From NCBI RefSeq assembly GCF_000829465.1, contig NZ_JXAL01000007.1, positions 1 to 64,000 of the forward strand: a stretch of 64,000 bases of DNA. The letters are read 5' to 3'. The notes beneath the pieces were generated by a model. The model saw nothing but the letters and a program-made list of their open reading frames with translations, made no database searches and had not been told where the DNA came from. The DNA comes from Cohnella kolymensis (GTDB taxonomy: Bacteria > Bacillota > Bacilli > Paenibacillales > Paenibacillaceae). A program made the translations under genes and the position numbers. This document shows, in pieces, positions 39,403 to 64,000 of this stretch (position 1 is its first letter; every line of letters begins with the position of its first letter).

Positions 39403-40446
39403 TCATCCAATATACTGCATCATTACCGGCGCCAAATGTTCGGCCATCCGAATGAAGCCCAAATCCGTCGGATGCACACCGTCAACGGTGCACTCGCTGT
39501 AATCGTCTCCAAGCAGCTGCTCACCGTCGCAGAAATACAGCTTGTCGTCGCCTTGCTGACGAAGTTTATTCACGATGTTCATTTGAATTGATTTTCGCCT
39601 TTGCCTCAGTTCCAACAAACCGTGATCAAACGTCTCCCGCGCATATCGTATTTGGGAAAGCACAACAATAGGCACTTTCGGATGCTTGCCGCGATAAATC
39701 CGAATGAACTCCGGCAGTGTGCTTTCGAGCAATTCCGGGCTGACGGAATTGGCCTCATAGTCAAGAACGAACAGCTGCGGATTCGGGATTTCACTAATGG
39801 CATGAGCAACCTCCGCTTCCCCTTTGCCGTTACCCGAAAACCCCAAATTAATGAACTCCAGATTGATCTTCCGGCTCAAAATGTTCGTGTATGCCATACC
39901 CGGCCTTGCAGCGCACCCGCCCTGTGTAATCGAAGTGCCGTAAATCACGATCCGCTTGTCACTTGAATAAGGCGGCGGCGCAGCAATCTCCGCTTCCGGG
40001 TCGAGTCCGATCAGCACCTCTTCAACACCCATGTAAAGAGGAAAGTACAACGTCATATTTTGAACCCCTGCATCCATCTTTTCGAACATGGCGAACTCAT
40101 ATTCTTTTTTCGTATGGTCGTATTTGGTCGTGTTATAGTACTTCTGCTCTCCCGATGCCCCGATATAGCAGTCAAAGCCGCACTGCCCGGTTGCCGGCAT
40201 ATGGTTCATATCCGCCGTTCCGGTCAAACGAACCTTTACCGATAGCCGGCTCGAATTCGTCTGAAAACGGATTTGCCCTCCTGCAGTACAATTGGCGAGA
40301 TCGTCCACAGCGGGCGGAAGCGGATGTTTCGGCTTTACCGGCATTCTGCGGTACACCCCGTCTTTTTCCAACCATGGAAACCCGGCAATATGGAACGGCT
40401 CATTCATCGGGGAATGCCAGAACACTTCCGACTTTTCAACCGTCAT
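39403..40446 (-). CDS. SGNH/GDSL-family hydrolase with N-terminal beta domain
   Basis: 347 residues without a signal peptide. About the first 165 residues look like the beta-sandwich domain often found before this SGNH type. The hydrolase part has block I YGTSITQGG (nucleophile Ser), block III GFSGNG (oxyanion Asn) and block V DGVHPTD (Asp-His pair). Such enzymes remove acetyl or other acyl groups from carbohydrates. It is the last gene of the first ABC importer operon and overlaps the GHL10-like gene by 4 nt. Intracellular deacylation of imported sugar is a reasonable inference. Confidence 0.85.
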   Translation of the reverse strand: MTVEKSEVFWHSPMNEPFHIAGFPWLEKDGVYRRMPVKPKHPLPPAVDDLANCTAGGQIRFQTNSSRLSVKVRLTGTADMNHMPATGQCGFDCYIGASGEQKYYNTTKYDHTKKEYEFAMFEKMDAGVQNMTLYFPLYMGVEEVLIGLDPEAEIAAPPPYSSDKRIVIYGTSITQGGCAARPGMAYTNILSRKINLEFINLGFSGNGKGEAEVAHAISEIPNPQLFVLDYEANSVSPELLESTLPEFIRIYRGKHPKVPIVVLSQIRYARETFDHGLLELRQRRKSIQMNIVNKLRQQGDDKLYFCDGEQLLGDDYSECTVDGVHPTDLGFIRMAEHLAPVMMQYIG

Positions 40447-41678
40447 TTCTTCTTCCCTTCTTTCGCCAATTCAAGTGTACCGGGCAGTTCCGGCCACCAT
40501 CGGTAATTGTTCAGATATACGGCATCGAACAGCATTACTCCATGCGTCCGTTCCCGGCACATGTTGACCGCTTTGCGGAACTGCTCGGGGTTACCCTCAT
40601 AATCTTTCAAGTACAAGCTTGCAACAACCGGAATACGATTATTTGTCGCTTCCAGACTCATATTAATAGCGCCTTCTACGCTATACCAAGCCGCAGGTCT
40701 GCCACTGGCAGCCGCTTCTGCGACAGTAACCTCCGGGTAATAGCAGCCTGTCATAATAAAATCCAATTCGTCCGCGTAAGCGCTCCGGTGATAGTCAGGC
40801 GATGCCCAACGAAGATCCGAGCGGTACGTCTCACTTGCCCAATTCACGCCTTCTTGATAGTAAAGCGGATACCAGGAACCTACATAGATGCTGAACAGGC
40901 ATTCGGGCCGAATCGACTTGACCGCCGTTTTAGCCTGCTGTACGAATCGTTTGATGTTCCACGCGCGCCATTCCGTCCATTGGGGGAACCATTTTCCTTG
41001 GATAAAATTGTCCCGTCCTGCTCGGGTACCAGGCTCTATAATATCATCGGGCCAGCGCTCTACGGTTTGGTTGATAAATTGCTCAAAGTCACTTCTGCTA
41101 AGATTGCTGAAGTCCGCGTACACATTCGGGTAACGGCAACGGTCCAGTACGATCCCGTCTATTTCGTAGCCGGTAACGATCTCCTTAATGATCGAAAGCT
41201 CGTGCTCCACAACCTCCGGGTGAATTGGATTTACAAACACGGTATCATTGTCAAAGTCTTCAGCGTACGCGGAGACTCCTGATGTTTCCGGGTTCATATA
41301 CACGACTTGCCATTCTTTCCTGCTAAAGGCTATTCCGTCTCCGGTCGTTCTGGTTCCTTCGGCAAACACATCGATATTAGCGAGAACCTTCAAACCTGCC
41401 GAACGCGCCTCCAAGATCATCTCTTTTAGGAAGTCCCTGCCTTCCCACATCTTAAAACGACCATCGGACCAGCTGCTCACATGCAGAGCATACCGACTGG
41501 GATATGTGCTATGTCCGTAAGGGATTTTCGCGTCGACAACCAGATGCGTAATGCCGGACACCTTTGCGTGCCGCACCAGATGCTCCCTGTTTTCTCTCTC
41601 TGCCAGATGAATCCCGTTTGCCAGAAAATCCACCCAAAGCACATTAGCGCCCTTTTCAATCTGATTATGCATCGGCAT
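40443..41678 (-). CDS. Cytosolic glycosyl-hydrolase-like (GHL10-type TIM barrel) protein
   Basis: 411 residues, no signal peptide. The sequence resembles the GHL10/DUF187 family: a (beta/alpha)8 barrel with VLANIDVFAEGT, IDGIVLDRCRYPN and SIYVGSWYPLYYQEG blocks. It is a distant relative of the secreted 900-residue protein encoded 3.5 kb away. Together with the SGNH hydrolase it probably processes what the adjacent ABC transporter brings in. Catalytic activity is not established for this family, so the substrate is left open. Confidence 0.75.
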   Translation of the reverse strand: MPMHNQIEKGANVLWVDFLANGIHLAERENREHLVRHAKVSGITHLVVDAKIPYGHSTYPSRYALHVSSWSDGRFKMWEGRDFLKEMILEARSAGLKVLANIDVFAEGTRTTGDGIAFSRKEWQVVYMNPETSGVSAYAEDFDNDTVFVNPIHPEVVEHELSIIKEIVTGYEIDGIVLDRCRYPNVYADFSNLSRSDFEQFINQTVERWPDDIIEPGTRAGRDNFIQGKWFPQWTEWRAWNIKRFVQQAKTAVKSIRPECLFSIYVGSWYPLYYQEGVNWASETYRSDLRWASPDYHRSAYADELDFIMTGCYYPEVTVAEAAASGRPAAWYSVEGAINMSLEATNNRIPVVASLYLKDYEGNPEQFRKAVNMCRERTHGVMLFDAVYLNNYRWWPELPGTLELAKEGKKK

Positions 41679-41697
41679 GCTTCACCCTCTCCATCTG

Positions 41698-42576
41698 TCA
41701 GCCTTTAACCGCTCCGACCATCCCGTTGATAAACTGCCTCTGCAGAATGAGGAAAATAACGATGATCGGAATGACGGAAATGATCGTTCCAGCTGCTATA
41801 TAAGGGAAGTTAAACGCCAGATTGCTGTTCAAATACCGGAGTGCAGGCCCTAGAGGATACTTCGCCTTATCGTCCAGTACGATAACAGGCCAGATCAGGC
41901 TGTTCCAGAATGCCATAAAGTCGAAAATGACTACCGTTGCAATTGCCGGCCGTATCATCGGCACCATAATACTGGCAAAAATCCGGAACTCGCCGGCCCC
42001 GTCTATTCGAGCAGAAAGCTCCATATCGTTAGGCACCGTAATGAACGCCTGGCGAAGTAAAAAGACGTTGAAGATGCTGATCGCCGACGGCAATACGACA
42101 CCCATCAAGGAATTATACAAGCCTAAGGATTGAATGGTGAGAAAGTTCACGATCATACCCGCAGCATTCGGCAAAATCATTGTGCTGACCATCGTAAAAA
42201 AGATAGCGTTGCGGCCCGGAAAACGCAGTCTGGCCAGAGGGTATGCCGTCAAAGCGCACAATGAAAGATTAAGGAGAACGCCGAGCGTCGTCATAACTAC
42301 GGTATTTCCGATATAATCCCATAATGGCATGATGTTGAACACATCGATAAAATTCTGAAACGTAATCGGGTTCGGGATGAATTGCGGGGGATACGCGTAC
42401 ACGTTTTCCCCTGTTTTGAGAGCGGTTGACAGCAGCCACAGGAATGGCCCAAGCGTAATGACGGTGGTCAACAGCAGCAACGGGTAAAGGATGATGGCCT
42501 GCAACACCTTTTTTCCCGACCACTTTTCGGAGCGGATGGGGCGGCGACTTGCCCGAGAAACTGAGGCATCACTCAT
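41698..42576 (-). CDS. Carbohydrate ABC transporter permease (MalG/AraQ-type), importer 1
   Basis: 292 residues with six predicted transmembrane segments. The permease EAA-type loop lies in MELSARIDGAGEFRIFASIMVP, where it contacts the ATPase. It overlaps the partner permease gene by 8 nt. No ATPase gene is in the operon, so a shared MsmX-type ATPase elsewhere is expected. Confidence 0.92.
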   Translation of the reverse strand: MSDASVSRASRRPIRSEKWSGKKVLQAIILYPLLLLTTVITLGPFLWLLSTALKTGENVYAYPPQFIPNPITFQNFIDVFNIMPLWDYIGNTVVMTTLGVLLNLSLCALTAYPLARLRFPGRNAIFFTMVSTMILPNAAGMIVNFLTIQSLGLYNSLMGVVLPSAISIFNVFLLRQAFITVPNDMELSARIDGAGEFRIFASIMVPMIRPAIATVVIFDFMAFWNSLIWPVIVLDDKAKYPLGPALRYLNSNLAFNFPYIAAGTIISVIPIIVIFLILQRQFINGMVGAVKG

Positions 42577-43465
42577 AATACGTTAACCCCCCTTTTCTCG
42601 TAAATCTGAACATGGCAATCGAGATGATCGTGATAATAATAGCGACCAGCAGCCCAAGTGCCGCTGAATAACCGAATTCAAAGTCTGTGAACGCTATCCT
42701 ATATGAATAAACGCTCGTCGTTAACGTCGAATAAGCGGGGTCTCCAAGCGATCCATGCATGACAAACACTTCATCGAAAACTTGGATCGCACCCATGACG
42801 GACAATAAAGAACATAAAAGCACGAATGGCATGAGCAGCGGAATCGTAATATGCCAGATGACTCTCCAGCGGTTAGCCCCGTCAATCCTCGCAGCTTCCT
42901 GCATTTCAGTCGGAATGGATTGCAGCCCGGCAAGATAGATCATCATGTAAAAACCTAATCCTTTCCAAACGGTAACGATCATGACTCCCATCAAAGCCAG
43001 CTTCGTCTCCACCATAAAAGAAATCGGTTCATCCAGAATTCCGAACTCCATCAAAAAGTAATTCAAAATCCCTTGTTCTTCGTATACCCATTTCCATGCG
43101 ATGGCCGCTGCAACCATCGAAGTAACGACCGGCACGAAATAAGCGACTCTGAAAAACTGGACGAAACGCAGCTTGTTATTCACGAGAATAGCCATAAGAA
43201 TGGATATGATCTGAAGAAAAGGCACGACCACTATGTATATCAGGGAATTTTTCAGCGCCGCCCCGAAGATCGGATCCGAAAATGCCCTTTTGAAGTTTTT
43301 CCATCCCGTCCAATGTGTCGTATCTACGACCGAATAGTCGGTAAACGCAAGCGGCAAGCCGCGCACGATTGGGTAAAACGTGAAAATCAGCAGCATAATG
43401 ATGCCGGGAATCAGAATCAAGTAGGCAAAAATGGCTTGCCGCCTCATTAACTTGTTGGTAAACAA
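42569..43465 (-). CDS. Carbohydrate ABC transporter permease (MalF/UgpA-type), importer 1
   Basis: 298 residues, six predicted membrane segments, with the EAA loop in MQEAARIDGANRWRVIWHITIP. It follows the binding-protein gene across a hairpin that may set relative expression. Closely similar to the permease at 53228-54124, showing that the two importers are paralogous. Confidence 0.92.
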   Translation of the reverse strand: MFTNKLMRRQAIFAYLILIPGIIMLLIFTFYPIVRGLPLAFTDYSVVDTTHWTGWKNFKRAFSDPIFGAALKNSLIYIVVVPFLQIISILMAILVNNKLRFVQFFRVAYFVPVVTSMVAAAIAWKWVYEEQGILNYFLMEFGILDEPISFMVETKLALMGVMIVTVWKGLGFYMMIYLAGLQSIPTEMQEAARIDGANRWRVIWHITIPLLMPFVLLCSLLSVMGAIQVFDEVFVMHGSLGDPAYSTLTTSVYSYRIAFTDFEFGYSAALGLLVAIIITIISIAMFRFTRKGGLTYYE

Positions 43466-43557: not shown

Positions 43558-44915
43558 TTATTTGGCTGCGTTTACCTCATCAAGTATCTTTTGCGCTGCT
43601 GATTCGGATTGGCTCAAATACTCTTCCGGCGTAATATCGCCGAGCAGCATCTTCTGCCAATTTTTCCACAACGGCTCCAAAATCTTGCCTTCGTCCTTCA
43701 CACCCAGCGTGAAATCCTGCGCTTTGGCTGCTTGCTTTACAGTAATGATTTTTGCTTTCGACTCCGCATCGTCTCCACCTTGAGTAAAGAACGGGTCTGC
43801 TGCGGCTTTTTTCGTCGACGGAAGTATGTTTACAATTTTACAGAATTCCAGCTGCGACTCGTCGTTCGTCATGAAATTCGCAAGCGCAATCGCTTCCGGG
43901 TGGTTTTCACTTTTAACCGGGACAACCAGGTTCATAAGGCCTGCATGATATTTGCCGGACTTCAAGACGGGCATCTCCGCAACGAGCGTATTGTCATAAA
44001 TCTTTTTCGCATTCGTTTTTACACGGCTCAGGAATGCAGCACCGGTAGTAAGGGTCGCGATCTGGCCGGATTGATATTTATCCGTCGCATAGTTGGCATC
44101 TGCTGACAAACTCTCTTTCGGAACAATACCTTCGTCATAGAGTGCTTTGTTCCATTTCACCCATTCGAGTGCTTCCGGGGTATTAATAACGATTTTCTTC
44201 TTGTCTTCACTAATAACCGGCACCCCGGAGAAGTACAAGTCAGCCGGCGGATTGTAGGTCGGCACGAAACCGTATTTGCCTGTTTTCTCTTTGATCGTCA
44301 CGGCGTGCTGCCTGAGCTCTTCCCAAGTGGTCGGCGGTTTGTTCGGATCGAGGCCCGCCTTTTCATATATTTCCTTGTTGTACATAAATGCGGAGAGTCC
44401 GTAGTACCACGGAAAAGCATAAACGCCGTCCCCGAGTTTCGCCGAGTTGTACAAGGTTTCGAAATAAATCGAGCGCTGTTCTTCAGTTGCTTCGGCGTTC
44501 ATGTCGACCAGCGCATTCTTTCCGGCCAGCGTCATCGTCATTCCAGTGTTCAGGTTAACTACATCCGGGGCGTTGCCGCCGGCAATGGAAACCAGCAATT
44601 TCTGCTCCATGGCGTCATACGGCAGATCCGTCCATTTGACTGTGACACCCGGATTCTCATCTTGGAACTTCTTGATACGACCGTTAATATAATCATCGAA
44701 ATTAGGGCTTAAAGAAATGGTCCAGAATTGCAAAGTAATATCCTTAGGGGCTTCCGAACTTTCACTCGGTGAAGCGCTTTGAGTTGATGATCCCGATGCA
44801 GGGGGAGATGAGCTCGATCCTGCCTCGTTGTTCTTTCCGCCGCCGCAAGCCGCTAAAATGGATATCATCATGGCGCAAACCATCAGTAAAGCGACAACCG
44901 TAACTTTCTGGTCAT
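43558..44915 (-). CDS. Extracellular sugar-binding lipoprotein, importer 1 (possible frameshift at the start)
   Basis: About 450 residues. Lipobox ILAACGG, a Ser-rich linker, then a solute-binding protein family 1 fold (LQFWTISLSPNFDDYINGRI near the start). It is anchored outside the membrane and delivers sugar to the two permeases downstream. The in-frame ATG at 44940 has no ribosome site and gives an acidic N-terminus. An ATG at 44915 has AGAGGGA 5-6 nt upstream but is out of frame by one. Adding one base to the A3 run at 44888-44890 joins it to give a normal signal peptide (MTRKLRLSLL). I prefer that start. Confidence 0.85.
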
Positions 44916-44951
44916 TCTGTTCCCTCTTTTCATTTGTCATTTAACCGTCAA

Positions 44952-45170: not shown

Positions 45171-47873
45171 TCAGTGCTCTGTCTCGTGCTTGGCAAAATA
45201 AAGATCCAACATTCTATGGGCGAAAGCTAAATCAAACTGTAACCGCTCTTTCACTTCCGCACGAATCGTCTGGGCCCTGGAGAGCTCCTTCTCGAGGCTT
45301 TCCAGTTTGTTCTTAGCGGCGGTTGCGATCCCTTGAGTCATCACCGCTTTCGTTCCCAGTACGTTGATTGCAGTCTGCAGATCCGCTTTCACCGATTTCG
45401 CGTCTTTGCTGTCCATACCCTCGAAAGGTACATAAATTTCATTGATTTTTCTGGTCATGTCCTGCAGTAAAACGGACAAAGGCTTTGTTGTCCGATAATC
45501 CGGTGCTACGGCGGCATTCCGATATACGCCCAGTTTCAGCTCCCGGTCATATCCGTTGTCGAACAACGACTCGAACTCGAATAACGCGCTGCCGTCCCCT
45601 CCGGCCATTACGCCTGCATTAATTTGACGGACGAGTTCCGCCTTCGTGAGATCAATGAAAGTGCCTATCCCTGAAGACACGAATGACTTGCCGCCTGCAA
45701 TTTGCACGGAGTTTCTCAGATCTTGCTCGATCAGTGTCGCATCCGGAACGTACGACATATGAAGCAAGTGGTCGATGTAATTTTTATCAACCCAGTACTT
45801 GGTTTCTTGAGCGTGCGATTTCGGGGCTTCGTCATAGTTCGGCCATACTGCTGCGCTAATCTGAATGCCCGGCTGGGTGTCCCTAGCTTCAGCCACCAAA
45901 CGATCTACCCATGTGTTGATAATATTTGCACGGAATTTCAGCCACTCATCCCAGTGAGCGTCACCCGGATGCAAATCGATCGGATCAGCTCCAGATTGCT
46001 GCTTGAACAAGTTTCGGGTATATTCGTCATACCCGAAATCGTTCGTGTAATCGCCTGATCCCGGATAGCGCGTGTAATCCAGATGCAGTGACGCGACTTC
46101 ATACTTGGACAGCAATTCTTTGTAAATGCCGGATACGAAGTCTCTTGCTTGCGGCAGCGCCGGGTTCAGCCAGTACCATTTGACGCCGTAGGAAGTCGGC
46201 TCGTAATTGTCGCCTTTTCTGCTGATCAGCAGCCAGTCCGGATGATTCTCAACGACCGGGCCTCCGGCGAAGAAGTTTTCCACCCAAGCGTGGATTTCGA
46301 TGCCCTGCTTCTTTCCTTCGTCCAAATAAGCCTGCAGCACATCAAAACCTTTATAGATCGGATTCTGAGTCGTCTCCTTGTTCGTTGTCGGCCAGATCGT
46401 GTAGCCATCCCACCAGGTTTCAAGATAGATGGCGTTAATGTTCGTTTCCTTAATTTGTTGCAGATGCTCCCTGACCTGTTCGAGATTCGTCTCTTTCGGA
46501 CGGAGCCACAAGCCGCGAGCATCAACCTTGCGGGACTCGAAATTCATGAAATGAGTGTCGGACAGGTTCTGGTCCAGCCGGTTCAGCAGATCGAACAATC
46601 CGTTCGTGACCCCGCCCTCCATTTCCGATTTGGCCTGCTGATAGAGACTTTTGGCGGCGGCGATCTTCTGTTCGATTTGCGCATAAGGCACATCCAGGAA
46701 CTTACTCTTGGACGCTTGAAGCGCCTTTTCAGCATTGTCGATGCCGATTTCCGCTTTGTTCAGGTAAGATTCAGGGGTAAAAATGATAAGTACCTGTTTC
46801 TTGCTGTGATCGATTTTTACCGTTGCACCGACCAAGGCGTTTTTCGTCAGTGCCAGGTTTTTCACGCCATGACCGGACAGGACATAGCCGCCCTGAGGAA
46901 TGACGCTGTCATTGCCTCCGCTCGCGATCACGAATCCTTTGTCGTTGACAACAGCTTCAAATCCCCATGGATTCGTGCCGGTGCGCGCTCCGTAATTGCT
47001 GTCATACACAATGAGCTGGTCAGCGCCCCGGAAGCCCGGAAACGGAGCGTTCGCGGCATCGTCCCAACCGGCGGGGTTATCTTCTTTGGTTTTCGGGTTA
47101 AATGCATCATAAGTAATTTTTCCTGCGGTATAGATTAGACTGTTCACGACTAAAGCTGCGGGATCGCCCACGGCTACCGTACCGTTGAGACGATCATAGA
47201 AAGGACTTCCCGATTGGATGGAGAGGACATATCCGTCTCTCGGGATGGGGGAATTATTATCGAGGAACTGCCCGGTGGCCGGATCTGCTGTGATTCCCAC
47301 AACTCTGGTAACCTTGTCGGCGACCACCGTAATTTCCATCCCCCACGGATTTTGTCCCGTTGAAGCTCCGTAAGAGGGTTGGTAAAGAATGACTTCGTTC
47401 GCGCCCCGGGAAGCGTTGACTTTGTCGATCCCGACGTTAATACCCTTCACGCTCATATATTTGGACGGAAGAACCGGGATATCGATATTTTGCGTCTGGA
47501 TTGTGGTACCGATTTCAAGATGGCCCAGCGATTCGGCTGCCTTACCTGAGGCGGAAAGCACATACCCCGTCGTCGGAATGAACGTACCATTGGCACCGCT
47601 CGTGCGTTTGGTAACAACAACTTCGTCAACGATAATATACTCTACCGTACCCGTGCCGAAAGGCGGGGATTTTTCGCCGTAGTTTCGCGTATAGACAGCC
47701 AACTGATCCTGACCGCGTACCTGATCGACCGAATCGACGGGTAACGTTCTGCCGTCTTCAAGAATGATTTGCGGAGCTCCGGCCGGAGCTGCGGCACCTG
47801 CTTGCCCCAATGCGCCGGTGAAGAGAAGGACTAGTCCCAGCATAAGCAATAATGCCTTATTTCTCCCTTTCAT
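45171..47873 (-). CDS. Secreted GHL10-family (family 10 glycosylhydrolase-like) protein
   Basis: 900 residues with a signal peptide (about 1-28). The N-terminal third contains three repeats of a domain with the pattern QLxVYxxNYG, NPWGxE and IPxxGYVLSxxG (starting near residues 50, 160 and 290). A helical linker follows (about 385-460). Then comes the GHL10/DUF187 barrel (ARGLWLRPKETN at about 465, ETWWDGYTIWPTT, EIHAWVENFFAG, HLDYTRYPG). The family is thought to act on glycans, but no activity is established here. GAGGAGG precedes the ATG. It sits upstream of importer 1, which has its own promoter. Confidence 0.85.
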   Translation of the reverse strand: MKGRNKALLLMLGLVLLFTGALGQAGAAAPAGAPQIILEDGRTLPVDSVDQVRGQDQLAVYTRNYGEKSPPFGTGTVEYIIVDEVVVTKRTSGANGTFIPTTGYVLSASGKAAESLGHLEIGTTIQTQNIDIPVLPSKYMSVKGINVGIDKVNASRGANEVILYQPSYGASTGQNPWGMEITVVADKVTRVVGITADPATGQFLDNNSPIPRDGYVLSIQSGSPFYDRLNGTVAVGDPAALVVNSLIYTAGKITYDAFNPKTKEDNPAGWDDAANAPFPGFRGADQLIVYDSNYGARTGTNPWGFEAVVNDKGFVIASGGNDSVIPQGGYVLSGHGVKNLALTKNALVGATVKIDHSKKQVLIIFTPESYLNKAEIGIDNAEKALQASKSKFLDVPYAQIEQKIAAAKSLYQQAKSEMEGGVTNGLFDLLNRLDQNLSDTHFMNFESRKVDARGLWLRPKETNLEQVREHLQQIKETNINAIYLETWWDGYTIWPTTNKETTQNPIYKGFDVLQAYLDEGKKQGIEIHAWVENFFAGGPVVENHPDWLLISRKGDNYEPTSYGVKWYWLNPALPQARDFVSGIYKELLSKYEVASLHLDYTRYPGSGDYTNDFGYDEYTRNLFKQQSGADPIDLHPGDAHWDEWLKFRANIINTWVDRLVAEARDTQPGIQISAAVWPNYDEAPKSHAQETKYWVDKNYIDHLLHMSYVPDATLIEQDLRNSVQIAGGKSFVSSGIGTFIDLTKAELVRQINAGVMAGGDGSALFEFESLFDNGYDRELKLGVYRNAAVAPDYRTTKPLSVLLQDMTRKINEIYVPFEGMDSKDAKSVKADLQTAINVLGTKAVMTQGIATAAKNKLESLEKELSRAQTIRAEVKERLQFDLAFAHRMLDLYFAKHETEH

Positions 47874-47983: not shown

Positions 47984-48290
47984 GTAAGGCGGGGTTGCGT
48001 GTAAGGCCTGTTACCGGACTTACAGCGTGCATCGCCTGCTGGGTTTGCTCTTGTAAGGCCGGTTATCGGACTTACAGTTTGCTTCGCTGGGGCGGTTTGT
48101 TCGTGTAAGGCCGGTTACCGGACTTAGAGCGTGCATTGCGGGCCGAGTTTGTTCGTTTAAGGCTGGTTACCGGACTTATGGCGTGTTTCGATGGGAGAGT
48201 TTATTTGTGTAAGGCGGGTTGGCCGCCTTACTGCTCCGCACGCGAGCAATTTGCTCGTGTAAGGCGGGTTTGCCGCCTTACAGCTCCGCA
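47984..48290. repeat. Tandem array of 52-bp hairpin-forming repeats
   Basis: Copies begin at 48001, 48053, 48105, 48157, 48209 and 48259 (spacing 52, 52, 52, 52, 50), with a short partial copy at 47984. Each begins with a 23-bp inverted repeat of type GTAAGGCCGG...CCGGACTTAC; in the last two copies it is a perfect 9-bp stem (GTAAGGCGG with CCGCCTTAC). The remaining 29 bp are more variable. The last copy overlaps the 3' end of the nanE coding sequence. There is no T-tract and no gene inside. Confidence 0.85.
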
Positions 48291-55620: not shown

Positions 55621-56325
55621 TCAATTCTTTCTGCTTTGTATATATTGGCTGATGGCACCGACAAAACGCTTGGTTATCTCCTGCGGACGAGTGATGGCAG
55701 TCCCGACGACTACCGCATAAGCGCCTGCATCGAAGCAGGCCAGGCATTCCTCCGCCGTCCAGATCCGGCCTTCCGCGATCACCGGTACCCGCTTCAGCTT
55801 CGCAAGCTGAGCCACCAGTTCGATATCGGGTCCGGCAGCTTGGGTGCTGTAGGGCGTGTATCCGGACATTGTGGTGGAGATCAGATCGCAGCCCAGTTCC
55901 ATCGCCGCTGCGCCTTCATCAAAAGTTGAGACGTCCGCGACAATCGGCACTGCAGGAAAATTCTTTCTGATCGCCCGGTAAAGCTCGTCAAACGTTATCC
56001 CGTCAGGTCTAGCACGCTTGGTGGCATCCACCGCCACGAGATCCGCTCCAGCTTCGACTACGGCCCTCACTTCATTGATCGTCGGTGTGATATATACCGG
56101 AGAACCGGCGTAAGTGTGCTTGTACAAGCCGATCACGGGAAGGGAGCACTTGCGCTTGATCATCGCGATATCCTGAGGTGTATTGGCGCGAATCCCTGCG
56201 GCTCCGCCGGCTTCAGCCGCCATTGCCATGGCCGCCATGTTCTCGGAGCCGAATAGAGGTTCTTCCTCCAAAGCCTGACATGACACGACCATGCCTTCTT
56301 TGAAGCGGTGGATCACTTCAGACAC
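55621..56325 (-). CDS. nanE: N-acetylmannosamine-6-phosphate 2-epimerase, copy 2
   Basis: 234 residues from a GTG at 56325 (AGGAGGTG just upstream), aligned with the start of copy 1; an ATG at 56355 has no site. Typical NanE blocks are GMVVSCQALEEEPLFGS, VADVSTFDEGAAAMELG and GTAITRPQEITKRFVGAI. It converts ManNAc-6-P to GlcNAc-6-P. It heads the importer-2 operon and is divergent from the DUF4127 gene. Intact, unlike copy 1. Confidence 0.93.
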   Translation of the reverse strand: MSEVIHRFKEGMVVSCQALEEEPLFGSENMAAMAMAAEAGGAAGIRANTPQDIAMIKRKCSLPVIGLYKHTYAGSPVYITPTINEVRAVVEAGADLVAVDATKRARPDGITFDELYRAIRKNFPAVPIVADVSTFDEGAAAMELGCDLISTTMSGYTPYSTQAAGPDIELVAQLAKLKRVPVIAEGRIWTAEECLACFDAGAYAVVVGTAITRPQEITKRFVGAISQYIQSRKN

Positions 56326-56405
56326 TTCTTCACCTCCTGTTCGCTCATCCCCCATCTTCTTTGAGAATTTCTGGGCTCTGACAAAAGCATATCATCAAAA
56401 TATTC

Positions 56406-56524: not shown

Positions 56525-58084
56525 ATGAAGCCGGCCGTGTATTTACCTTTGGACGAGAGACCATGCAACCGGAAATACCCCGAGATGCTGTCAAGAATGA
56601 CAGCATTGCCGTTAAGCTTGCCGCCGGAAGATTTATACGGGAATAAGAAAAAACCCGCAGACTGCGCGAAGCTGGCAAGTTGGCTGCAGCAGCAAGCGGT
56701 CGAAGCTGAAAGTATGATCGTATCGCTCGATATGCTGGTGTACGGAGGTATCGTTCCTTCGAGGCTTCACCAAGCCAGTGTGGAGCAATGTCTGAATCGG
56801 CTGGAGGTTCTGTCTAAAATTAAGGAGCGGAACCCGCAGGTTAAAATTCGCGCCTTCAATCTCATTATGCGTGTACCCGCTTATGACGGTGACGACGAAG
56901 AACCGGCGTATTATGCGCAGTACGGAAGGCGTATTCACCGTTTCGGCTGGATTGAGGATAAGCGGAGCGGCGGCGGACTGTCGGAATCGGAAAATGAAGA
57001 GCTTGCGGAGATTACCCGTACCGTGCCGGCAGAGGTGCTGGACGATTTCACCCGCAGACGCGCGGTGAACGCTGAGGTTAACCGACATGCAATCAGGCTT
57101 GTTCGGGACGGTGTGATTGACCTGCTGATCATTCCCTTGGACGATAACGCGGAATATGGGTTTTCCGCCATGGAGCAGCGGCAGCTGATTGCGCATGCGG
57201 AGTCGCTTGAAGTGTCCGACCGCGTACATATTTATCCGGGAGCGGATGAGATCGGATGCACGCTGTTTGCTCGGGTATTTAACGAAACAGTGGGCTTCCA
57301 GCCTGAATTTTTCGTCCGCTATTCTTCCACCGCAGCGCCGTTCGTCATCCCGCGTTACGAAGACCGAAGCTTGAATGAAAGCATTAAAGCACATCTGACC
57401 GCTTCCGGCAGCTTTAAAAGCGATTCACCGGACAGCGCCCATGTCGTGCTTTGCGTCAATGCCCCTCCCGTGGGGGCCGCACAGGCTGCGGAATCAACGA
57501 CAGCTTTTGAGGATCGCAGCCACGCCTATTTTTCCGAGACGAACAGCAAAGAATTGATACAGGCCATCAAGTATTATACGGATCGCGGGAGACTTGTCGC
57601 GCTGGCCGACACAGCCGTGTCTAACGGGAGCGACCACGTGTTCATGAAACAGCTGTCTCGCGCGGGTCTCCTCGGCCGCTTAAGCGCCTATGCGGCTTGG
57701 AACACCTCCGGTAATTCGCTTGGAACAGTTATCGCACATGCTGCGGTCGAAGCGTACTACCGCTATTCCGGAGCGGAAAGATCGGAAGAGCAAAAGCAGC
57801 TCAGCCGATTGTTCTATGTTTTCCGCCTGCTCGAGGACTGGGGCTACCAATCGCTGGTGCGCAGCGAGATCACCCGCTATGAGCTTGATTCGCTGGGAGG
57901 AAATTATTTCGATATCGCGGCTCTGGAGGCGGATGTGTCGGCGATCGCTGAAACCAAGCTGCTACATTTCGCGGGCACCTTTCTTCAAGACGTCCATGCC
58001 GACCGCATTTCCCTTGATCGGGTGTACTTCCCTTGGAAGCGGATGTTTGAGATCGGTCTGGATGTGAGCTGGAAGTCCGAATAG
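56525..58084 (+). CDS. DUF4127 family protein
   Basis: 519 residues, cytosolic. The N-terminus (PLDERPCNRKYPEML and SLDMLVYGGIVPSRLH) and interior (PLDDNAEYGF, GADEIGCTLFAR and AAWNTSGNSLGTVIAH) are diagnostic of DUF4127, whose function is not known to me. The family recurs next to sugar-utilisation genes. GGGAGG lies before the ATG. It is the only plus-strand gene in this carbohydrate region, transcribed away from nanE copy 2 across a putative operator. Confidence 0.88.
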   Translation: MKPAVYLPLDERPCNRKYPEMLSRMTALPLSLPPEDLYGNKKKPADCAKLASWLQQQAVEAESMIVSLDMLVYGGIVPSRLHQASVEQCLNRLEVLSKIKERNPQVKIRAFNLIMRVPAYDGDDEEPAYYAQYGRRIHRFGWIEDKRSGGGLSESENEELAEITRTVPAEVLDDFTRRRAVNAEVNRHAIRLVRDGVIDLLIIPLDDNAEYGFSAMEQRQLIAHAESLEVSDRVHIYPGADEIGCTLFARVFNETVGFQPEFFVRYSSTAAPFVIPRYEDRSLNESIKAHLTASGSFKSDSPDSAHVVLCVNAPPVGAAQAAESTTAFEDRSHAYFSETNSKELIQAIKYYTDRGRLVALADTAVSNGSDHVFMKQLSRAGLLGRLSAYAAWNTSGNSLGTVIAHAAVEAYYRYSGAERSEEQKQLSRLFYVFRLLEDWGYQSLVRSEITRYELDSLGGNYFDIAALEADVSAIAETKLLHFAGTFLQDVHADRISLDRVYFPWKRMFEIGLDVSWKSE

Positions 58085-58098: not shown

Positions 58099-58956
58099 TC
58101 ATGAGCGGAACGTCCATTCTAATGTGCGTATCGATTCCGACCCTTGTATGTATGTGCGAGTTTCATCATATTCCGGCGTAAAACTGAACGGACCGTCTAC
58201 CGATCTCGTGGATATTCGAAGGCTGCTCCCGCTCACTTCTACTATTTTGTAGTCGAACGGCGTTTCAACAAACGAGCTGCCTGTGGCAAACACGCCTTCA
58301 TACGTCTGCTTCAAGGTATTGGCATGATTATGACCGGATAACACACATTTCATGTTGTGCGCACGCATCCGGCCCAGTACGATTTGCCGAAACGGATCAG
58401 GCACGTCGTGGATGGTCTCCTCATAGCCGGTCTGTTCCTTCGGGATGCCGAAAACAGGATTGTGCACCGATAACAGATGAACTTTGTCCGGATGCAGCCT
58501 GATCTCGGCTTCGAGCTGACTGAGCTGCTCTTCCGTCAAGTAAGGATCCTGCGCCGTATCCCAGTAATAAGGCACACCCGGCTCCCATTGACTAGGCATG
58601 ACATGCAAGGCCGCTATTTTATCGTAAATTGTATATTGGGGTTTTTGTCCGGGGAAAAATTCCGGAGCCAGCTTCAGCCATAAGGATACTGCGTCTTGCC
58701 GGTTCAAATCGTGGTTTCCTTGAGATAGATAGACGGGGACGGGCAAATGGAATAACCTTTTCGCTTCCGAAATGAGCTCCGGCGTACATTGATGTACCAT
58801 ATCCCCGCCGTGAAGAACAAAATCGACATGACCGGCTCGCGCGAGTGATTTGATCTCGTCCAGAAGTTCTTCCAACCTGTCCGGATAAGCCGGTTGTTGG
58901 TGGAAGTCCGCCGGGCCGGCTCCGATATGCGTATCCGTTAAAAACAAAAATCGCAT
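58099..58956 (-). CDS. Calcineurin-like metallophosphoesterase, Icc-type
   Basis: 285 residues. All five metal/active-site blocks are present in order: TDTHIG, GGDMVH, QGNHDLN, VHNPVF and GHNHAN. This is the arrangement of the class III cyclic-phosphodiesterase/Icc group. No signal peptide. The natural substrate (cyclic nucleotide, phosphosugar or phospholipid head group) is unknown. It is convergent with DUF4127 and shortly downstream of a second, divergent metallophosphoesterase. Confidence 0.88.
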   Translation of the reverse strand: MRFLFLTDTHIGAGPADFHQQPAYPDRLEELLDEIKSLARAGHVDFVLHGGDMVHQCTPELISEAKRLFHLPVPVYLSQGNHDLNRQDAVSLWLKLAPEFFPGQKPQYTIYDKIAALHVMPSQWEPGVPYYWDTAQDPYLTEEQLSQLEAEIRLHPDKVHLLSVHNPVFGIPKEQTGYEETIHDVPDPFRQIVLGRMRAHNMKCVLSGHNHANTLKQTYEGVFATGSSFVETPFDYKIVEVSGSSLRISTRSVDGPFSFTPEYDETRTYIQGSESIRTLEWTFRS

Positions 58957-58991: not shown

Positions 58992-59933
58992 TTACTCTTG
59001 CAGCGTTCTTCCTTGAGAGTCATGTGAAGGCTGTTGAAATACGCAATCCCCGGTTTCCAGCCTCAGCCATGTCCGAAAGCTGCTGCGACCTTCCTGCAGT
59101 TCGATCACTCTTGCCCCGTTCGCGAAACCCTCCTTGCTGTAATTGTTGTAGCCGGTTTTTCTTCCGTAGCACAGCGTGATGCCTTGCAGCTCGCCGCAAA
59201 AATCGTTCGCATGATCGTGTCCGACGCAGACGCCGATGACATTCCCCGCCTCCACCATAGCGTCGAACATGCCGGTATTGACCCGCGGACAGCAAATCTC
59301 TTCATACTTGCTGCCGCGGCAGAAGCGGGAATCCCATACGTCGTTATACTCCGGGAGTGGAATATGGAAAAACGCTAGACTAGGAACAGCGGCTCCGCCA
59401 TTCTGCTCAGACAAAGCTGCCGACTCCCGGCGAAACCAATCGATCTGATCGTTCTCTATAGCCGCATAGCCGCCGGTTTCAGGTGCCGCGTAGCTCCCTG
59501 AATCGATGAAAAACAGGGCGTGACTCGTTCGCCCATCTCGACCGGCCACGCGAAGCACGTAATTGCCGACTCCTGTGATCGTCTCGGGACCGCTCTCCGT
59601 CAAACCATATCTAAACCCTTGAAGAGACTCCAACAATTCCTTGCGTGTGATGCCGAATTCCGTATCGTGGTTCCTGAATACGGCTGCCCATGGAACGCCG
59701 GCCGATTCGATCACAGCGACAGCCTGCCGAACGGATGCCTGCGGATCGACACATTGTTCGCTCTCTATCAGATCGCCGGTAATGACCGCCAGATCGGGGG
59801 ATTCCTCTCTCAACACTCTCTCCATCAATACCGCCGTCATGCTGTCGTTATCATTGCCGCCGCACCAATGAAGATCTGTGAACTGGACGATTTTGAAGCT
59901 TCCATTCGCGTTAAATGACAAAGCCGCCCCCAT
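58992..59933 (-). CDS. Metallophosphoesterase, purple-acid/DUF2461-like type
   Basis: 313 residues from the ATG at 59933, which begins 1 nt after the stop of the ADP-ribosylglycohydrolase gene. The blocks are QFTDLHWC, ITGDLIES, FRNHDTEFG, FFHIPLPEY and GVCVGHDHAND, similar to Dcr2-like phosphoesterases. It shares fold but little sequence with the next gene. Co-transcribed with the ADP-ribosylglycohydrolase, MBL hydrolase, dehydrogenase and ROK kinase upstream. The subfamily label is tentative; the metallophosphoesterase call is firm. Confidence 0.83.
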   Translation of the reverse strand: MGAALSFNANGSFKIVQFTDLHWCGGNDNDSMTAVLMERVLREESPDLAVITGDLIESEQCVDPQASVRQAVAVIESAGVPWAAVFRNHDTEFGITRKELLESLQGFRYGLTESGPETITGVGNYVLRVAGRDGRTSHALFFIDSGSYAAPETGGYAAIENDQIDWFRRESAALSEQNGGAAVPSLAFFHIPLPEYNDVWDSRFCRGSKYEEICCPRVNTGMFDAMVEAGNVIGVCVGHDHANDFCGELQGITLCYGRKTGYNNYSKEGFANGARVIELQEGRSSFRTWLRLETGDCVFQQPSHDSQGRTLQE

Positions 59934-59934
59934 T

Positions 59935-61244
59935 TTACACCATCCCGCGCATGGCAATATCGGTCGACCTGACCGCCAGCTTGCTGATCGACTGCACACC
60001 CTCGCCCGCTATATAACTCTCGATCCGGTCGTGCAGCGGCTTCGTCCACTTATCCGGAAGCCTCTTCGCTCCACTCAGAATACCGATAATCGAACCGGCG
60101 CTCGCTCCATTGCAGTCCGTATCCAATCCTAGCATCACGCGATCGTGATCGTTTTCTCCAAATCCCGCTCCCCATAAAGCAGAGCCAAAACCACAATCGC
60201 CGCGTTGTTGATCGTATGAACCCAATGCATCCCGGCGAACCTCTCCAACAAGCGGTCGCCTGCTTTTTCCCAGTCCGGTTCTTCCTCTTTGACCTTCAGA
60301 ACCCAATCGACAGCTTCATAAAGCCGCGAACTCGACGGAATATGGTCCATTCCCGTACGAATCACGCTCTCCACCTCATTCTGACTGAAGGCCGAAGCGT
60401 TCATAGCAGCGATAAACATCGCGCCGTATATTCCGTTGGAGGTATGGGAAAGCGCGGCGTCATGATACGCCATCCGTGCCGCACCCGCCGGGTCGCCGGG
60501 GCAAATATATCCGTAATGATCCGCCCGAATTTGCGCGCCGATCCATTCCCGATAAGGGTTGTTTACAAACGCCGTCTGTGGAATCCGCACGCCCGCGCAC
60601 AGATTGATATACGCCGCTCTTTCCGCCGTATACGTCATCAACGGAGGAAGATACGTAAGCCACATCTGCGCCACCTGCTCCGTCGTAAAACCGCGGCCGA
60701 ACATTTCCACCATTTTTAATGCCAGAATCGTATAATCCGTATCGTCGTCTCTCGGCATTCCCGAGCAATTCTCGATCGCGCAGCGGCTGTACTGTTCGTG
60801 CTTCCAAGGCTCAAGATCCACCGGCGCGAACCGATCCGTAAAATAGTGCCGAAGCGGATATGCCGCATACGAAGATAGCACCCGGTGAATCTCTTTCCGG
60901 TTCCAACCTTCCACGGGTTTCCCTAGAAGGCAGCCGGCCGCACGCCCAAGCCAGGCTCCATGAATCCGATCGAAAAGCTTCTCTCTGTCTGTTAACCCCG
61001 TCGCTGTATGAAACCGGGATGCTCTCTCAATGGACACCAAATCGGAAGGCTCGACATACTCGTAAATCTCACGCATTTTCCACGAGGACGCACTTTCATA
61101 GAGCTCTCGGCATTTGCCGGCCAACTCTTCATCCGATCCGGACACGGTCCGGACATGCAAAGGCAGAGAAGCGACATCGATTCCCTGCTCCTCCAATTGA
61201 ATAAGCTCCTGCTTCAGTATTTCTCCCCAATCGATCAGCTTCAC
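59935..61244 (-). CDS. ADP-ribosylglycohydrolase family protein (frameshift near 60137)
   Basis: About 435 residues after repair. A 90-residue N-terminal extension precedes the ADP-ribosylglycohydrolase (DraG/ARH) domain. That domain has DRIHGAWLGRAAGCLLGKPVEG at its start and the first metal site PRDDDTDYTI. The open frame stops at 60135 in the middle of the last conserved block; the next frame continues with MLGLDTDCNGASAGSIIG, the second metal site, and ends at 59935. One missing base near 60137 explains the break. Family members cleave N- or O-glycosidic ADP-ribose bonds, but many in sugar operons are of unknown substrate. Confidence 0.85.
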
Positions 61245-61265: not shown

Positions 61266-62078
61266 CTAGATATGCAACACCATACCATCATAAGCGACCA
61301 TAATGCCTTCCTTCTCGAAAATAGCCGTCAAATCGTCATGCAGCAGACCGATGTTGTGGGAAAAATGGGTAGCGACCACTTGCCCGCCAGGCCGCAGAAC
61401 GGCTTGATTGCCCAGGCGATTGCGGATATCGAGCACCGCCTCGATATTCAGATGGCTGCCGGTGAACGGCAGGTTCCCATTGGTGCAATCCAGGATGGCA
61501 AGGTCTAGTTTCCGCTGTTCAAGCCATGCCCATGTATCCTCGGGGAGCAAGCCGGTATCGTGACCGTAGAACACGGTTTTTCCATCTTTTTCGATGAAGA
61601 ACAGCAGGCAGGTTTCATCGGGGTCGTGATTAGCGGGCAGCGCAGTCACGATGAAGGTGCCCGTATCGATCGTCTCGAAAGGTACGATTCTCCGGATGAC
61701 GATGTGCTCGTCTCCCGGACGGCCGACCGCGTCGCGGCATTTGCGAACGACAGCGTCATTGCCGTACACATGAAGCGGATGATCCAAGCCGTGTGCGAAC
61801 ACCGGCAGCCGCATCTCGAGCTCTTCCGCCCTCAGATGATCCATATGCGTATGCGTCACGAACAGATCTTGCACAAGGCCGAGATCCAGTCCGTCGCGGA
61901 GCACATGGTGGAGCGTGTCGGGCGGAAAATCGATTTTCAATACATCGTCAATGATCGCAGAGCTTCGGGTGCGAATGTTCCGACCTCCCGACTTGCGCGC
62001 TTTCGCGCAATGCGGGCACCGGCAGAACAAAGCGGGAAAGCCTTCAGCCGCCGCAGTCCCGAGAAAATGAATTTTCAC
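61266..62078 (-). CDS. MBL-fold metallohydrolase (PhnP-like)
   Basis: 270 residues from a GTG at 62078, which has AGGAGG 9 nt upstream; an ATG at 62102 lies before that site. KIHFLGTAAAEGFP at the start, a Cys-pair loop (CRCPHC), the metal motif THTHMDHL and a later GHDTG and THFSHN are like PhnP phosphodiesterases acting on cyclic phosphosugars. A cyclic or phosphorylated sugar substrate is plausible in this operon, but unproven. Confidence 0.83.
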   Translation of the reverse strand: MKIHFLGTAAAEGFPALFCRCPHCAKARKSGGRNIRTRSSAIIDDVLKIDFPPDTLHHVLRDGLDLGLVQDLFVTHTHMDHLRAEELEMRLPVFAHGLDHPLHVYGNDAVVRKCRDAVGRPGDEHIVIRRIVPFETIDTGTFIVTALPANHDPDETCLLFFIEKDGKTVFYGHDTGLLPEDTWAWLEQRKLDLAILDCTNGNLPFTGSHLNIEAVLDIRNRLGNQAVLRPGGQVVATHFSHNIGLLHDDLTAIFEKEGIMVAYDGMVLHI

Positions 62079-62123
62079 AGCTCCGTCCCTCCTCGACGCC
62101 ACCTGGACCGGCTGCTTTCTTTT

Positions 62124-63179
62124 TTACCGATCGAACCGGATTTCATGCCCTTTCTCCGCCGACTCGTAGATTCCGCACAATATCTTCATCATCTCCACGC
62201 CGTCCTCAACTGGGCTGAGCGTCTCTTTCCTGCCCAAGCATGAATCTACGAAATGGTCAATCTCGCTTTGGAAGGCTTCGGTAAAGTTAAATGACAAATG
62301 ATCCACCTGAGGAGTCATGTTCAGAATTGTGTCGTGCTTCTCGCCAACGAGGAACAATTCCGGTTCGATTTCCGCCCCTCCCTTGTCTCCGAACACTTTG
62401 ACGTAAAGCTCATCTTGCTTGGCATGCAGCGTAAAGCTGACATCCACGAGGAGCGAAGCCCCGTTCTCGAAGCGGATGACAGCGTTGGCCAAATCCTCGA
62501 CGGTATTTTTGCTTGCATCGTAATCGGAAGCTTGGTAGAAAGACAGGTTTTGCACATTGGCCCGATTGCCGAGACGATTGTATACATTGCCGCTGACGGA
62601 TGCCACTTTCGGTTTGCCCATCAAATACCAGCACAGGTCTATGATATGCACGCCCAGATCGATCAGAGGTCCGCCGCCGGAACGTTCCTTATCGGAGAAC
62701 CAGCCGCCCGGATTACCCAATCTTCTGATACAGCTGGCTTTCGCGTAATAGATTTCTCCCAAGTCGCCCGCCTCAAGGAAGCGTTTCAAGATTTTCGTAT
62801 TCGAGCTGTAACGGCGCACAAACCCGACCTGAAGGAGCTTGCCGGATTTACGTACAGCGGCCTCCACTTTCTCGGCTTCTTCGACGGTTTTACAGAGAGG
62901 CTTCTCTACCAACACGTTCTTGCCCGCCTCGACCGCGGCTATACTGATTTCCGCATGAGAGTTGTTCCAAGTGCAGACGCTCACGGCGTCGATTTCGGGA
63001 TCTGCAAGCAGCTCCCGGTAATCGGTGAATACTTTCCCGGCGCCGTATTTGTCCGCTTTCGCTTGCGCGCGTTCTCTGTTCAGATCACAGACAGCGTAGA
63101 GGGTAACATCGGGATTATTGGCATAAGCGTTAAAATGAACCTCCGATATCGATCCCGCACCAATAATAGCAACATTCAT
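62124..63179 (-). CDS. Gfo/Idh/MocA-family oxidoreductase
   Basis: 351 residues, intact. NAD(P)-binding AIIGAGSISEVHFNAYA, the EKPLCKT motif near residue 95, and the C-terminal domain with GGPLIDLGVHIIDLCWYLMG. Such enzymes oxidise or epimerise sugars, inositols or glycosides. It lies in the same minus-strand operon as the ROK kinase and MBL hydrolase. Substrate unknown. Confidence 0.9.
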   Translation of the reverse strand: MNVAIIGAGSISEVHFNAYANNPDVTLYAVCDLNRERAQAKADKYGAGKVFTDYRELLADPEIDAVSVCTWNNSHAEISIAAVEAGKNVLVEKPLCKTVEEAEKVEAAVRKSGKLLQVGFVRRYSSNTKILKRFLEAGDLGEIYYAKASCIRRLGNPGGWFSDKERSGGGPLIDLGVHIIDLCWYLMGKPKVASVSGNVYNRLGNRANVQNLSFYQASDYDASKNTVEDLANAVIRFENGASLLVDVSFTLHAKQDELYVKVFGDKGGAEIEPELFLVGEKHDTILNMTPQVDHLSFNFTEAFQSEIDHFVDSCLGRKETLSPVEDGVEMMKILCGIYESAEKGHEIRFDR

Positions 63180-63213
63180 TTTTTTTCATCAATCTATCTC
63201 TCCCTTTATATTC

Positions 63214-64000
63214 TTATCGATTGCCAGCGTAATGCCAGACTTGAGCGGCCGCCCCGATGACTCCGGCATCGGCGCCGACATAAGCGGGCAGAAGGCGGCA
63301 TACGTTCAGCATCCCGGGGGTAGTGCGCTTCTGCACTTGCTTATACAGCGCATCGAAAAAAACCGGGCCGGTTTCCGAAACGCCGCCTCCGATCATGACT
63401 GCTTCCGGATTAAAAATATGTATGAATCCCGCGACCGCAGCCCCCAAAGCTCGCAGGACGCGATCCATCAGCTCGGACGCCATTCGATCGCCTTGCAGCC
63501 ATGCTTGAATGATGTCTCTCGAATGCGGCTGCCAGCTTATCTCGTCCCTGCAGGCCTCCAGCATTTCCCTGCCCATTCGGGCTATTCCGGTGCCGGAGGC
63601 ATACAACTCTAAACACCCGTTATTCCCGCATCCGCATAAAGGACCGTCGAAATCGACGGAAACATGGCCAAGCTCGCCCGCTCCTCCGAACGCTCCGCGT
63701 ACCAGCCGGCCGGATTCCACAATGCTCCGCCGACTCCGGTGCCTAAAGCGAGACAGATGAAGCTGCTGAATTGCTTTCCCGCTCCGAATTCCTTCTCCGC
63801 CACCGCGATCACATTGACGTCGTTGTCTACGAAAGTCGGCTTGCCGAATCGTTCTTCCACATGCCGTCTGATCGGCATACCCGTCCAGCCGGGGAGCGTC
63901 TCTCCCGCAAACACGACTTCACCTGTGTGAAAATCAATCTGCCCCGCGCTGCCGACTCCAATGCCGGCTGCAACATCCGAAGAGTTCATCGCCGCGGCAA
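63214..64000 (-). CDS. ROK-family sugar kinase (partial at right edge, frameshift near 63725)
   Basis: The N-terminus lies outside the window; the first visible residues are upstream of VAAGIGVGSAG. The ATP/phosphate loop LGTGVGG and the ROK zinc motif GCGNNGCLE are present but in different frames. Adding one base near 63725 restores GGGIVESGRLVRG. The end (GADAGVIGAAA) is typical of glucokinase, NanK and NagK. With two nanE copies in the region a ManNAc kinase is plausible, but specificity cannot be read here. Confidence 0.85.

Follow-up and report, generated by a model that had tools for sequence, protein, structure and literature searches.

A DUF4127-containing gene module of Bacillota and its possible role in the salvage of N-acetylmannosamine glycans

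Results

A DUF4127–NanE locus in Cohnella kolymensis

The window analyzed here (the first 64,000 nucleotides of contig NZ_JXAL01000007.1 of Cohnella kolymensis) holds a large gene cluster whose signature gene encodes a protein of the Pfam family DUF4127, and this locus probably imports and degrades fragments of a glycan containing N-acetylmannosamine (ManNAc). Our preferred reading, to which we assign a probability of roughly 0.45, is that the locus belongs to a widespread Bacillota module for the salvage of oligosaccharides with beta-linked ManNAc, the best single candidate substrate being the ManNAc-beta-(1->4)-N-acetylglucosamine (GlcNAc) unit found in the linkers of wall teichoic acids and in secondary cell wall polymers. 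We arrive at this disaccharide because two contexts of DUF4127 converge on it, namely NanE (i.e., ManNAc-6-phosphate) in the salvage module and TagA and LCP proteins at the wall. ManNAc-beta-1,4-GlcNAc is given as the linker unit of Bacillus subtilis wall teichoic acid in part of the text of PMC7086022, and, in the corresponding section of PMC6801904, as the unit, continued through C3 and pyruvylated, of which the Paenibacillus alvei polymer is built.

In the proposed route, a secreted GHL10 protein, and possibly an SGNH esterase too, would trim the polymer, sugar ATP-binding cassette (ABC) importers would bring in the fragment, and the cytoplasmic DUF4127 protein would split it by glycosidic cleavage, releasing ManNAc. 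The ROK kinase would then phosphorylate ManNAc (in versions with a phosphotransferase system (PTS), transport would do so), NanE would convert the product to GlcNAc-6-phosphate, NagA and NagB, encoded elsewhere in the genome, would complete the route, and RpiR would sense an intermediate. Overall, the route is made up of known steps (ABC or PTS, ROK, NanE, Nag), DUF4127 being likely, as a prediction from sequence and context, to be its missing enzyme and possibly a new enzyme family. Matches to NagA (332 bits, cut-off 226) and NagB (300 bits, cut-off 237) are both found on another contig of the genome (C4 in our numbering), the nagB gene having one in-frame internal stop in the assembly.

The module recurs across Bacillota

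DUF4127 is present in 161 of 295 genomes of the window's family and in 47 of 299 genomes of the phylum. We fetched 40 neighborhoods of 13–20 kb (drawn from various genera and from 15 of the 16 further genomes of the same genus that had a match) and a second set consisting of the best 80 of 544 named relatives; by tblastn, NanE is encoded in 32 of the 40 family neighborhoods and in 51 of the best 80 relatives. Addition of four plasmid loci gave 124 loci, of which 108 were left once near-duplicates had been removed. Across these 108 loci, the neighbors of DUF4127 are ABC transporter proteins (77), NanE (70), ROK (62), RpiR (55), a flavin adenine dinucleotide (FAD) oxidoreductase (39) and Gfo/Idh-type dehydrogenases (33), followed by GHL10 (13), a metallo-beta-lactamase (MBL)-fold hydrolase (12), GH3 (11), ADP-ribosylglycohydrolase (9), GH130 (8), AXE1 (7), SGNH (5), GH84 (4), homologs of metallophosphoesterases 2 and 1 of the window (3 and 1) and the enolase-superfamily enzyme (1); DUF4127 adjoins GH3 in 7 loci and GH84 in 4. 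ROK accompanies NanE, being present in 57/70 NanE-positive versus 5/38 NanE-negative loci, and so does GHL10 (13/70 versus 0/38, p = 0.004), whereas GH130 is found in 8/38 NanE-negative and 0/70 NanE-positive loci (p = 0.0001; both p values ignore relatedness).

As a control for the selection of loci, we used whole-genome matches in a sample of 118 genomes of the family, with the window's own genome left out. Of 41 close-type DUF4127 genes, 29 have a nanE gene within 5 kb, with ~0.2 expected within 10 kb. In the same sample, 29 of 90 nanE genes are near a close-type DUF4127 gene, and nanE has contexts other than DUF4127. At the genome level (n = 117), 34 genomes have both genes, 31 nanE only, 2 close-type DUF4127 only, and 50 neither.

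Scanning the class with the Carnobacterium DUF4127 protein gave matches in 37 of 398 genomes, of which 26 belong to families other than that of the window. Loci were fetched by DUF4127 similarity from 16 of these 26 genomes, and three (L172, L173 and L178 in our numbering of loci; 27–28% identical) were set aside as divergent; the 14 that remained, among which L164 is probably the same record as L094 of the earlier sets, encode an ABC importer in 14 cases, RpiR in 13 (some by weak matches), ROK in 12, the FAD oxidoreductase in 12, NanE in 11, and GHL10 in 8. A near-complete version of the window's gene set is found in other families at L163, L165, L166, L168, L169, and L174. The earlier note on this DNA had set a comparison of neighborhoods as one test, with a lack of conserved co-occurrence as an outcome that would count against it; the gene set instead recurs in Paenibacillaceae and Bacillaceae, as well as in Thermoanaerobacterium, a metagenome-assembled genome of Halanaerobiales and, in a reduced PTS form, Carnobacterium and Enterococcus.

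Defined as DUF4127 together with NanE, ROK, RpiR, and a sugar importer within ~10 kb, the module is present in the window. In two same-genus relatives (L033 and L036), importer 1, NanE2, DUF4127, the MBL-fold protein, GfoB, ROK, the FAD oxidoreductase, and RpiR2 recur in one order at 52–89% identity, L033 also carrying metallophosphoesterase 2 and L036 the SGNH hydrolase. Of the ManNAc-type route put forward in the earlier note, the conserved core exists, with DUF4127 and GHL10 belonging to it, but the accessory genes are not conserved steps: the ADP-ribosylglycohydrolase and the two metallophosphoesterases, listed there as unassigned steps, are rare passengers at the counts given above, and the enolase-superfamily enzyme fares no better as a step of the module. 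The accessory genes of the window are most readily understood as having been added locally. Other DUF4127 loci add GH38, GH84, GH3, GH20-like, GH130, or acetyl-esterase partners that vary between genomes and, because such glycosidases occur there, use of the module is probably not limited to a single N-acetylhexosamine (HexNAc) or mannose glycan.

PTS forms of the module

On the Carnobacterium plasmid pCAR50, the gene order is NanE, HAD phosphatase, DUF4127, PTS IIC, and RpiR, with the IIC protein scoring over the lactose/cellobiose subfamily cut-off (361 versus 236 bits). An Enterococcus faecalis plasmid has a divergent RpiR gene followed by a lactose/cellobiose-type PTS IIA, NanE, HAD, DUF4127, and a PTS IIC 64% identical to that of Carnobacterium. 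PTS transporters of the lactose/cellobiose type usually take up disaccharides as phosphates. Because no other glycosidase is recognized in these two short operons, DUF4127 is the candidate for the protein that splits the imported disaccharide. Two other loci, one of them on a Priestia plasmid, encode proteins in which a ROK domain is fused to a helix-turn-helix and SIS region of RpiR type (L160:7424-9160 and L154:8846-10525, the latter being the Priestia locus).

Secreted-type DUF4127 proteins and wall genes

A phylum scan, from which 40 loci of DUF4127-positive genomes were fetched, revealed the NanE module in five (L179, L180, L181, L196, and L209, with L179 and L181 probably the same records as L139 and L145), the remaining loci being without it. 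Over 186 DUF4127 loci, the protein was called secreted-like in 33, not secreted-like in 151, and not judgeable in 2, the call denoting a hydrophobic N-terminus before the first motif at a simple hydropathy threshold rather than the output of a signal-peptide predictor. NanE is found in 2/33 secreted-like versus 100/151 non-secreted-like loci, and a wall gene (YceG/MltG, DacA, LCP, TagA, or SLH) in 13/33 versus 10/151; this last count is partly circular, as the wall-gene queries were taken from four of these loci, and several loci are sister lineages. Minus the four query loci, the secreted-like figure is 9/29. Close-type DUF4127, taken here as 36.5% or more identical to the protein of the window or of Carnobacterium, is cytoplasmic-like in 132 of 135 loci; one further locus was not judged, and the two exceptions (L049 and L103) are identical in sequence and seem to arise from a misplaced start codon. 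Distant-type proteins are secreted-like in 31 of 51 loci, not secreted-like in 19 and not judged in 1, and their cytoplasmic-like members include those of the sugar-module loci L165, L166, L168, L169, L174, and L209. DUF4127 adjoins YceG/MltG in one lineage (L184 and L185) and lies near a DacA-like carboxypeptidase in L187 and L199–L203.

The DUF4127 protein of L188, whose N-terminus resembles a lipobox by eye, is flanked by an SLH-domain protein and an LCP protein, the latter followed by a WecG/TagA/CpsF glycosyltransferase. We tested this link in the order to which the L188 genome belongs, outside Bacilli, where 17 of 113 genomes have such a DUF4127 protein and each of these has a single PF03808 gene (two in one genome). 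In 8 of the 17 genomes (7 of 16 minus the discovery genome), a gene of the tagA family, the family of ManNAc transferases, is found no more than 10 kb from DUF4127, compared with ~0.11 expected for a 3-Mb genome; in the remaining nine, the genes are on different contigs in six and on one contig, 53 kb, 149 kb, and 3 Mb apart, in three. DUF4127 adjoins LCP in 7 of 8 newly fetched loci of one family (f122), tagA and LCP lie beyond a match resembling the FAD oxidoreductase (25–29% identity) in 3 of 6 loci of another (f178; L230, L234, and L236), and tagA is 8 kb from DUF4127 in L235. The hydrophobic N-terminus is present in 17 of the 18 loci fetched from this order, one not being judged. Given the relatedness of these genomes, the linkage reflects few independent events, perhaps three.

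The secreted-type DUF4127 proteins at TagA/LCP wall-polymer loci differ from that of the window, which is of the cytoplasmic type and stands in a catabolic setting. The idea, raised in the earlier note, that the source is the secondary cell-wall polymer of paenibacilli gains indirect support from tagA, LCP, and SLH genes beside secreted-type DUF4127, but nothing in this evidence is specific to paenibacilli. Taking the two settings together, we tentatively suggest, as a possibility on the doubtful side, that DUF4127 founds a new carbohydrate-active enzyme family, with a fold unmatched in the Protein Data Bank (PDB), that cleaves ManNAc-beta-(1->4)-GlcNAc, secreted members acting at the TagA/LCP step to trim or remodel wall polymers linked through ManNAc, and cytoplasmic ones recycling the released disaccharide via NanE; if true, this would be a way of salvaging ManNAc from Gram-positive walls.

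The DUF4127 protein

The window protein matches PF13552 at 516 bits (cut-off 27) over profile positions 2–488 of 489. Many invariant residues are common to 68 close members, and D10, R12, S79, R80, R116, R179, D206, D207, D241, and D362, among others, are kept in ten very diverse members. For these 68 members, no credible match to another Pfam family was found among the 25 of 28 families listed; a likeness of the YPGADE motif to a GH20 motif was considered but dropped, GH20 not being among those 25. The AlphaFold model is confident (pLDDT 94.3, pTM 0.94), and a profile search found no convincingly similar solved structure. DUF4127 relatives also occur in viral collections (phage records MT838954 and MT835857 and BFVD model A0A346TNQ6); of four matches to viral models that pass an E value of 0.001, only A0A346TNQ6 (25% identity) has a credible TM-score (0.81). 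DUF4127 is widespread, yet Pfam lists its function as unknown, and its genome context makes the candidate role biochemically testable. Papers on N-acetylmannosaminidase, DUF4127, or DUF4985 were not found in the open-access library searched.

Points against the proposed route and alternative readings

Several observations weigh against ManNAc-beta-(1->4)-GlcNAc salvage as the function of the module. NanE is absent from 38 of the 108 loci, and 7 of these 38 (L109, L113, L115, L117, L122, L127, and L129) carry an amidohydrolase, a DgaE-like lyase, a KDGP aldolase, PfkB, and GH130, as well as GntR, apparently an alternative, amino-sugar-acid route; at such loci, therefore, DUF4127 need not deliver ManNAc. 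This arrangement resembles glucosaminate (dga) catabolism in placing a DgaE-like lyase and a KDGP aldolase beside DUF4127 (7/108 loci), but it is not seen in the window and never occurs with NanE among the 108 loci. Conversely, for 61 of the 90 nanE genes of the family sample, no close-type DUF4127 gene lies within 10 kb, and at many loci of distant DUF4127 proteins both NanE and the queried wall genes are missing. The partners GH38, GH84, GH130, and ManA also point to glycans rich in mannose and GlcNAc. The tagA link is confined to three families of a single order, PF03808 membership would not by itself prove ManNAc transfer, and the single PF03808 gene of the window's own genome lies on a contig other than that of DUF4127. 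The activity of DUF4127 is a prediction for every member; in a Foldseek search of the model, no PDB structure matched at E ≤ 0.001, and none of the 50 matches listed, weak ones to TIM barrels among them, had a TM-score above 0.30. With no confident solved relative, the fold lends glycosidase chemistry no support. Finally, the ROK gene of the window is frame-interrupted, so this copy may not work.

It is unlikely, though a serious competitor, that DUF4127 is a modifying enzyme rather than a glycosidase, one that works with the FAD oxidoreductase (e.g., to remove a substituent such as pyruvate or to help oxidize and open the sugar) before ordinary glycosidases act. The oxidoreductase is beside DUF4127 in 39/108 loci and, without NanE, in L172 and L173, similar matches lie near DUF4127 at the tagA loci, many loci encode other glycosidases, and the model lacks a glycosidase-like fold match; the two PTS operons, by contrast, give no tblastn match to the oxidoreductase, and no other glycosidase is recognized in them. 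Nor do we think it likely that the fragments handled by the module are of eukaryotic or fungal N-glycan type (Man-beta-GlcNAc, chitobiose core) and not from bacterial wall polymers, with DUF4127 acting on Man-GlcNAc or GlcNAc-GlcNAc and NanE processing a minor ManNAc branch. GH38 and ManA at the Priestia plasmid locus, GH38 at three loci of one Bacilli genus (L160–L162), and the GH130, GH84, and GH3 genes counted above (8, 4, and 11 of 108 loci) would fit such a substrate, as would the closest solved relative of the binding proteins, annotated via the chitobiose protein ChiE, but NanE (70/108) is far commoner than any of those glycosidases, and secreted-type DUF4127 pairs with tagA and LCP. 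To our knowledge, N-glycan catabolism has no need of NanE.

The ChiE hint itself is weak and indirect: both binding proteins of the window are closest to MsBP (PDB: 6wpm), whose family is annotated through ChiE. According to the portion of PMC8938411 available, MsBP preferred phosphate-modified sugars and did not bind GlcNAc, and the Thermotoga maritima chi operon described there shares with the window a ChiE-type binding protein importer, predicted HexNAc enzymes, and a ROK protein, but its ROK protein is described as a regulator whereas that of the window is a proposed kinase, and NanE and DUF4127 are features of the window. The presence of two importers, two nanE genes, and two rpiR genes, together with phosphoesterases and an enolase-superfamily enzyme rarely found beside DUF4127, could be taken to mean that the window combines two or three neighboring but independent sugar loci that do not share a substrate; as the set from importer 1 to RpiR2 recurs in one order in L033 and L036, we consider this improbable.

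A sialic acid catabolic locus, for its part, is largely refuted and very improbable. NanA is usually accompanied by NanE, ROK, and RpiR, and the window shares with Nan loci NanE and an RpiR regulator, besides encoding a frame-interrupted ROK homolog that may be a ManNAc kinase. Nevertheless, the best and only NanA match in the whole genome scores 125 bits against a cut-off of 382, the window has DUF4127, GHL10, the FAD oxidoreductase, and an esterase instead, and sialidase is not among the families found in the scanned locus proteins (no genome-wide sialidase search was made); the earlier note likewise saw no NanA and did not regard sialic acid as the obvious source. In the part of PMC12713135 available, the RpiR-type NanR of Streptococcus pneumoniae is reported to bind ManNAc-6-phosphate.

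Gene content and integrity of the window locus

Pfam scans of the window proteins confirmed the gene inventory of the earlier note over 39403–63179 (two ABC importers, two NanE proteins, RpiR, two GHL10 proteins, SGNH, two Gfo/Idh proteins, DUF4127, the phosphoesterases, and the others named below). The 25-kb extent given there needs revision: the gene set is real, but the cluster continues ~9 kb beyond the window, to ~72.8 kb of the 79,224-base contig. Apart from DUF4127 (56525..58084), the sole plus-strand gene and the proposed ManNAc-GlcNAc-cleaving enzyme, all genes are on the minus strand. In minus-strand order, the cluster begins beyond the window end with an Opp-type importer (named from sequence and homology), RpiR2, and the FAD oxidoreductase (PF12831); RpiR2 and the Opp-type importer occupy contig positions 65898–72801, and all five Opp parts recur in relatives L047, L078, and L141. 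The ROK sugar kinase (63214..64000, continuing to contig position 64196) runs past the window end and, as recognized in the earlier note, is identified by eye and by tblastn to related loci, but not by Pfam on the window copy. Next come GfoB, a Gfo/Idh/MocA dehydrogenase (62124..63179), and an accessory MBL-fold hydrolase (61266..62102) that is PhnP-like, as previously noted, but falls below the PhnP equivalog cut-off (TIGR03307, 89 versus 272 bits).

The central part comprises the accessory ADP-ribosylglycohydrolase-like protein (59944..61244), metallophosphoesterases 2 (58992..59999) and 1 (58099..58956), likewise accessory, DUF4127, the ManNAc-6-phosphate 2-epimerase homolog NanE2 (55621..56355), and importer 2, consisting, like importer 1, of a solute-binding protein (54193..55551; lipobox by eye; 6wpm the closest solved chain, E = 2.4e-51) and two permeases (52354..54166), followed by the accessory enolase-superfamily enzyme of muconate/dipeptide-epimerase type (51136..52266). 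A role of the last as a sugar-acid dehydratase was rejected, its nearest solved relatives being of the muconate-cycloisomerase, dipeptide-epimerase, and N-acylamino-acid-racemase types and the gene not being conserved in the module. The order ends with GfoA, also a Gfo/Idh/MocA dehydrogenase (50110..51139), RpiR1 (49213..50072), NanE1 (48278..49031), the large, presumably secreted GHL10 protein (45171..47873; N-terminal signal sequence by eye), importer 1 (binding protein at 43558..44940, with a lipobox by eye and 6wpm as closest solved chain, E = 8.2e-52; two permeases at 41698..43465), the GHL10-DUF4985 glycoside-hydrolase-like protein (40443..41678; no signal peptide by eye), and a GxDLY-SGNH hydrolase, a putative deacylase (39403..40446; PF14607 and PF14606). 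The GHL10 (PF02638) matches score 82 and 116 bits against a cut-off of 27.9. Cwp19, reported in part of the text of PMC5765458 to be a slow peptidoglycan hydrolase, belongs to the same GHL10 Pfam family, but the GHL10-DUF4985 protein is only remotely similar to it (a short, weak sequence match to 5oq2, E = 0.0047).

Compared with homologs, NanE1, RpiR1, GfoA (judged by one homolog), the ADP-ribosylglycohydrolase, and ROK each have one frame change, at approximately 48794, 49326, 50375, 60140, and 63721, i.e., five within 15 kb; none was found in DUF4127, NanE2, or RpiR2 relative to homologs in related loci. It should be noted that the test covered genes for which the fetched loci supplied a homolog of 45% identity. 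Two of the five sites are at homopolymers of at least six bases, and a genome-wide comparison of 96 BPD_transp_1 permease-domain matches revealed two pairs that look like split genes; assembly error and local decay are each possible. When translated, the DUF4127 genes of L118 and L141 have one stop each within the matched stretch.

In the gap between NanE1 and the secreted GHL10 gene, an intergenic array (47998–48309) consists of imperfect units of ~50–52 bases with palindromic cores. The AT-rich stretch TTTATTCAAAAT is common to the region upstream of nanE1 (49134–49145) and the nanE2/DUF4127 intergenic region (56356–56524) and is a possible regulator site; in an operator search, the matches common to promoters were mostly AT-rich. 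The G+C content of the window dips to 0.38 at 8001–10000 and to 0.43 at 16001–18000, the remaining 2-kb windows lying at 0.47–0.57.

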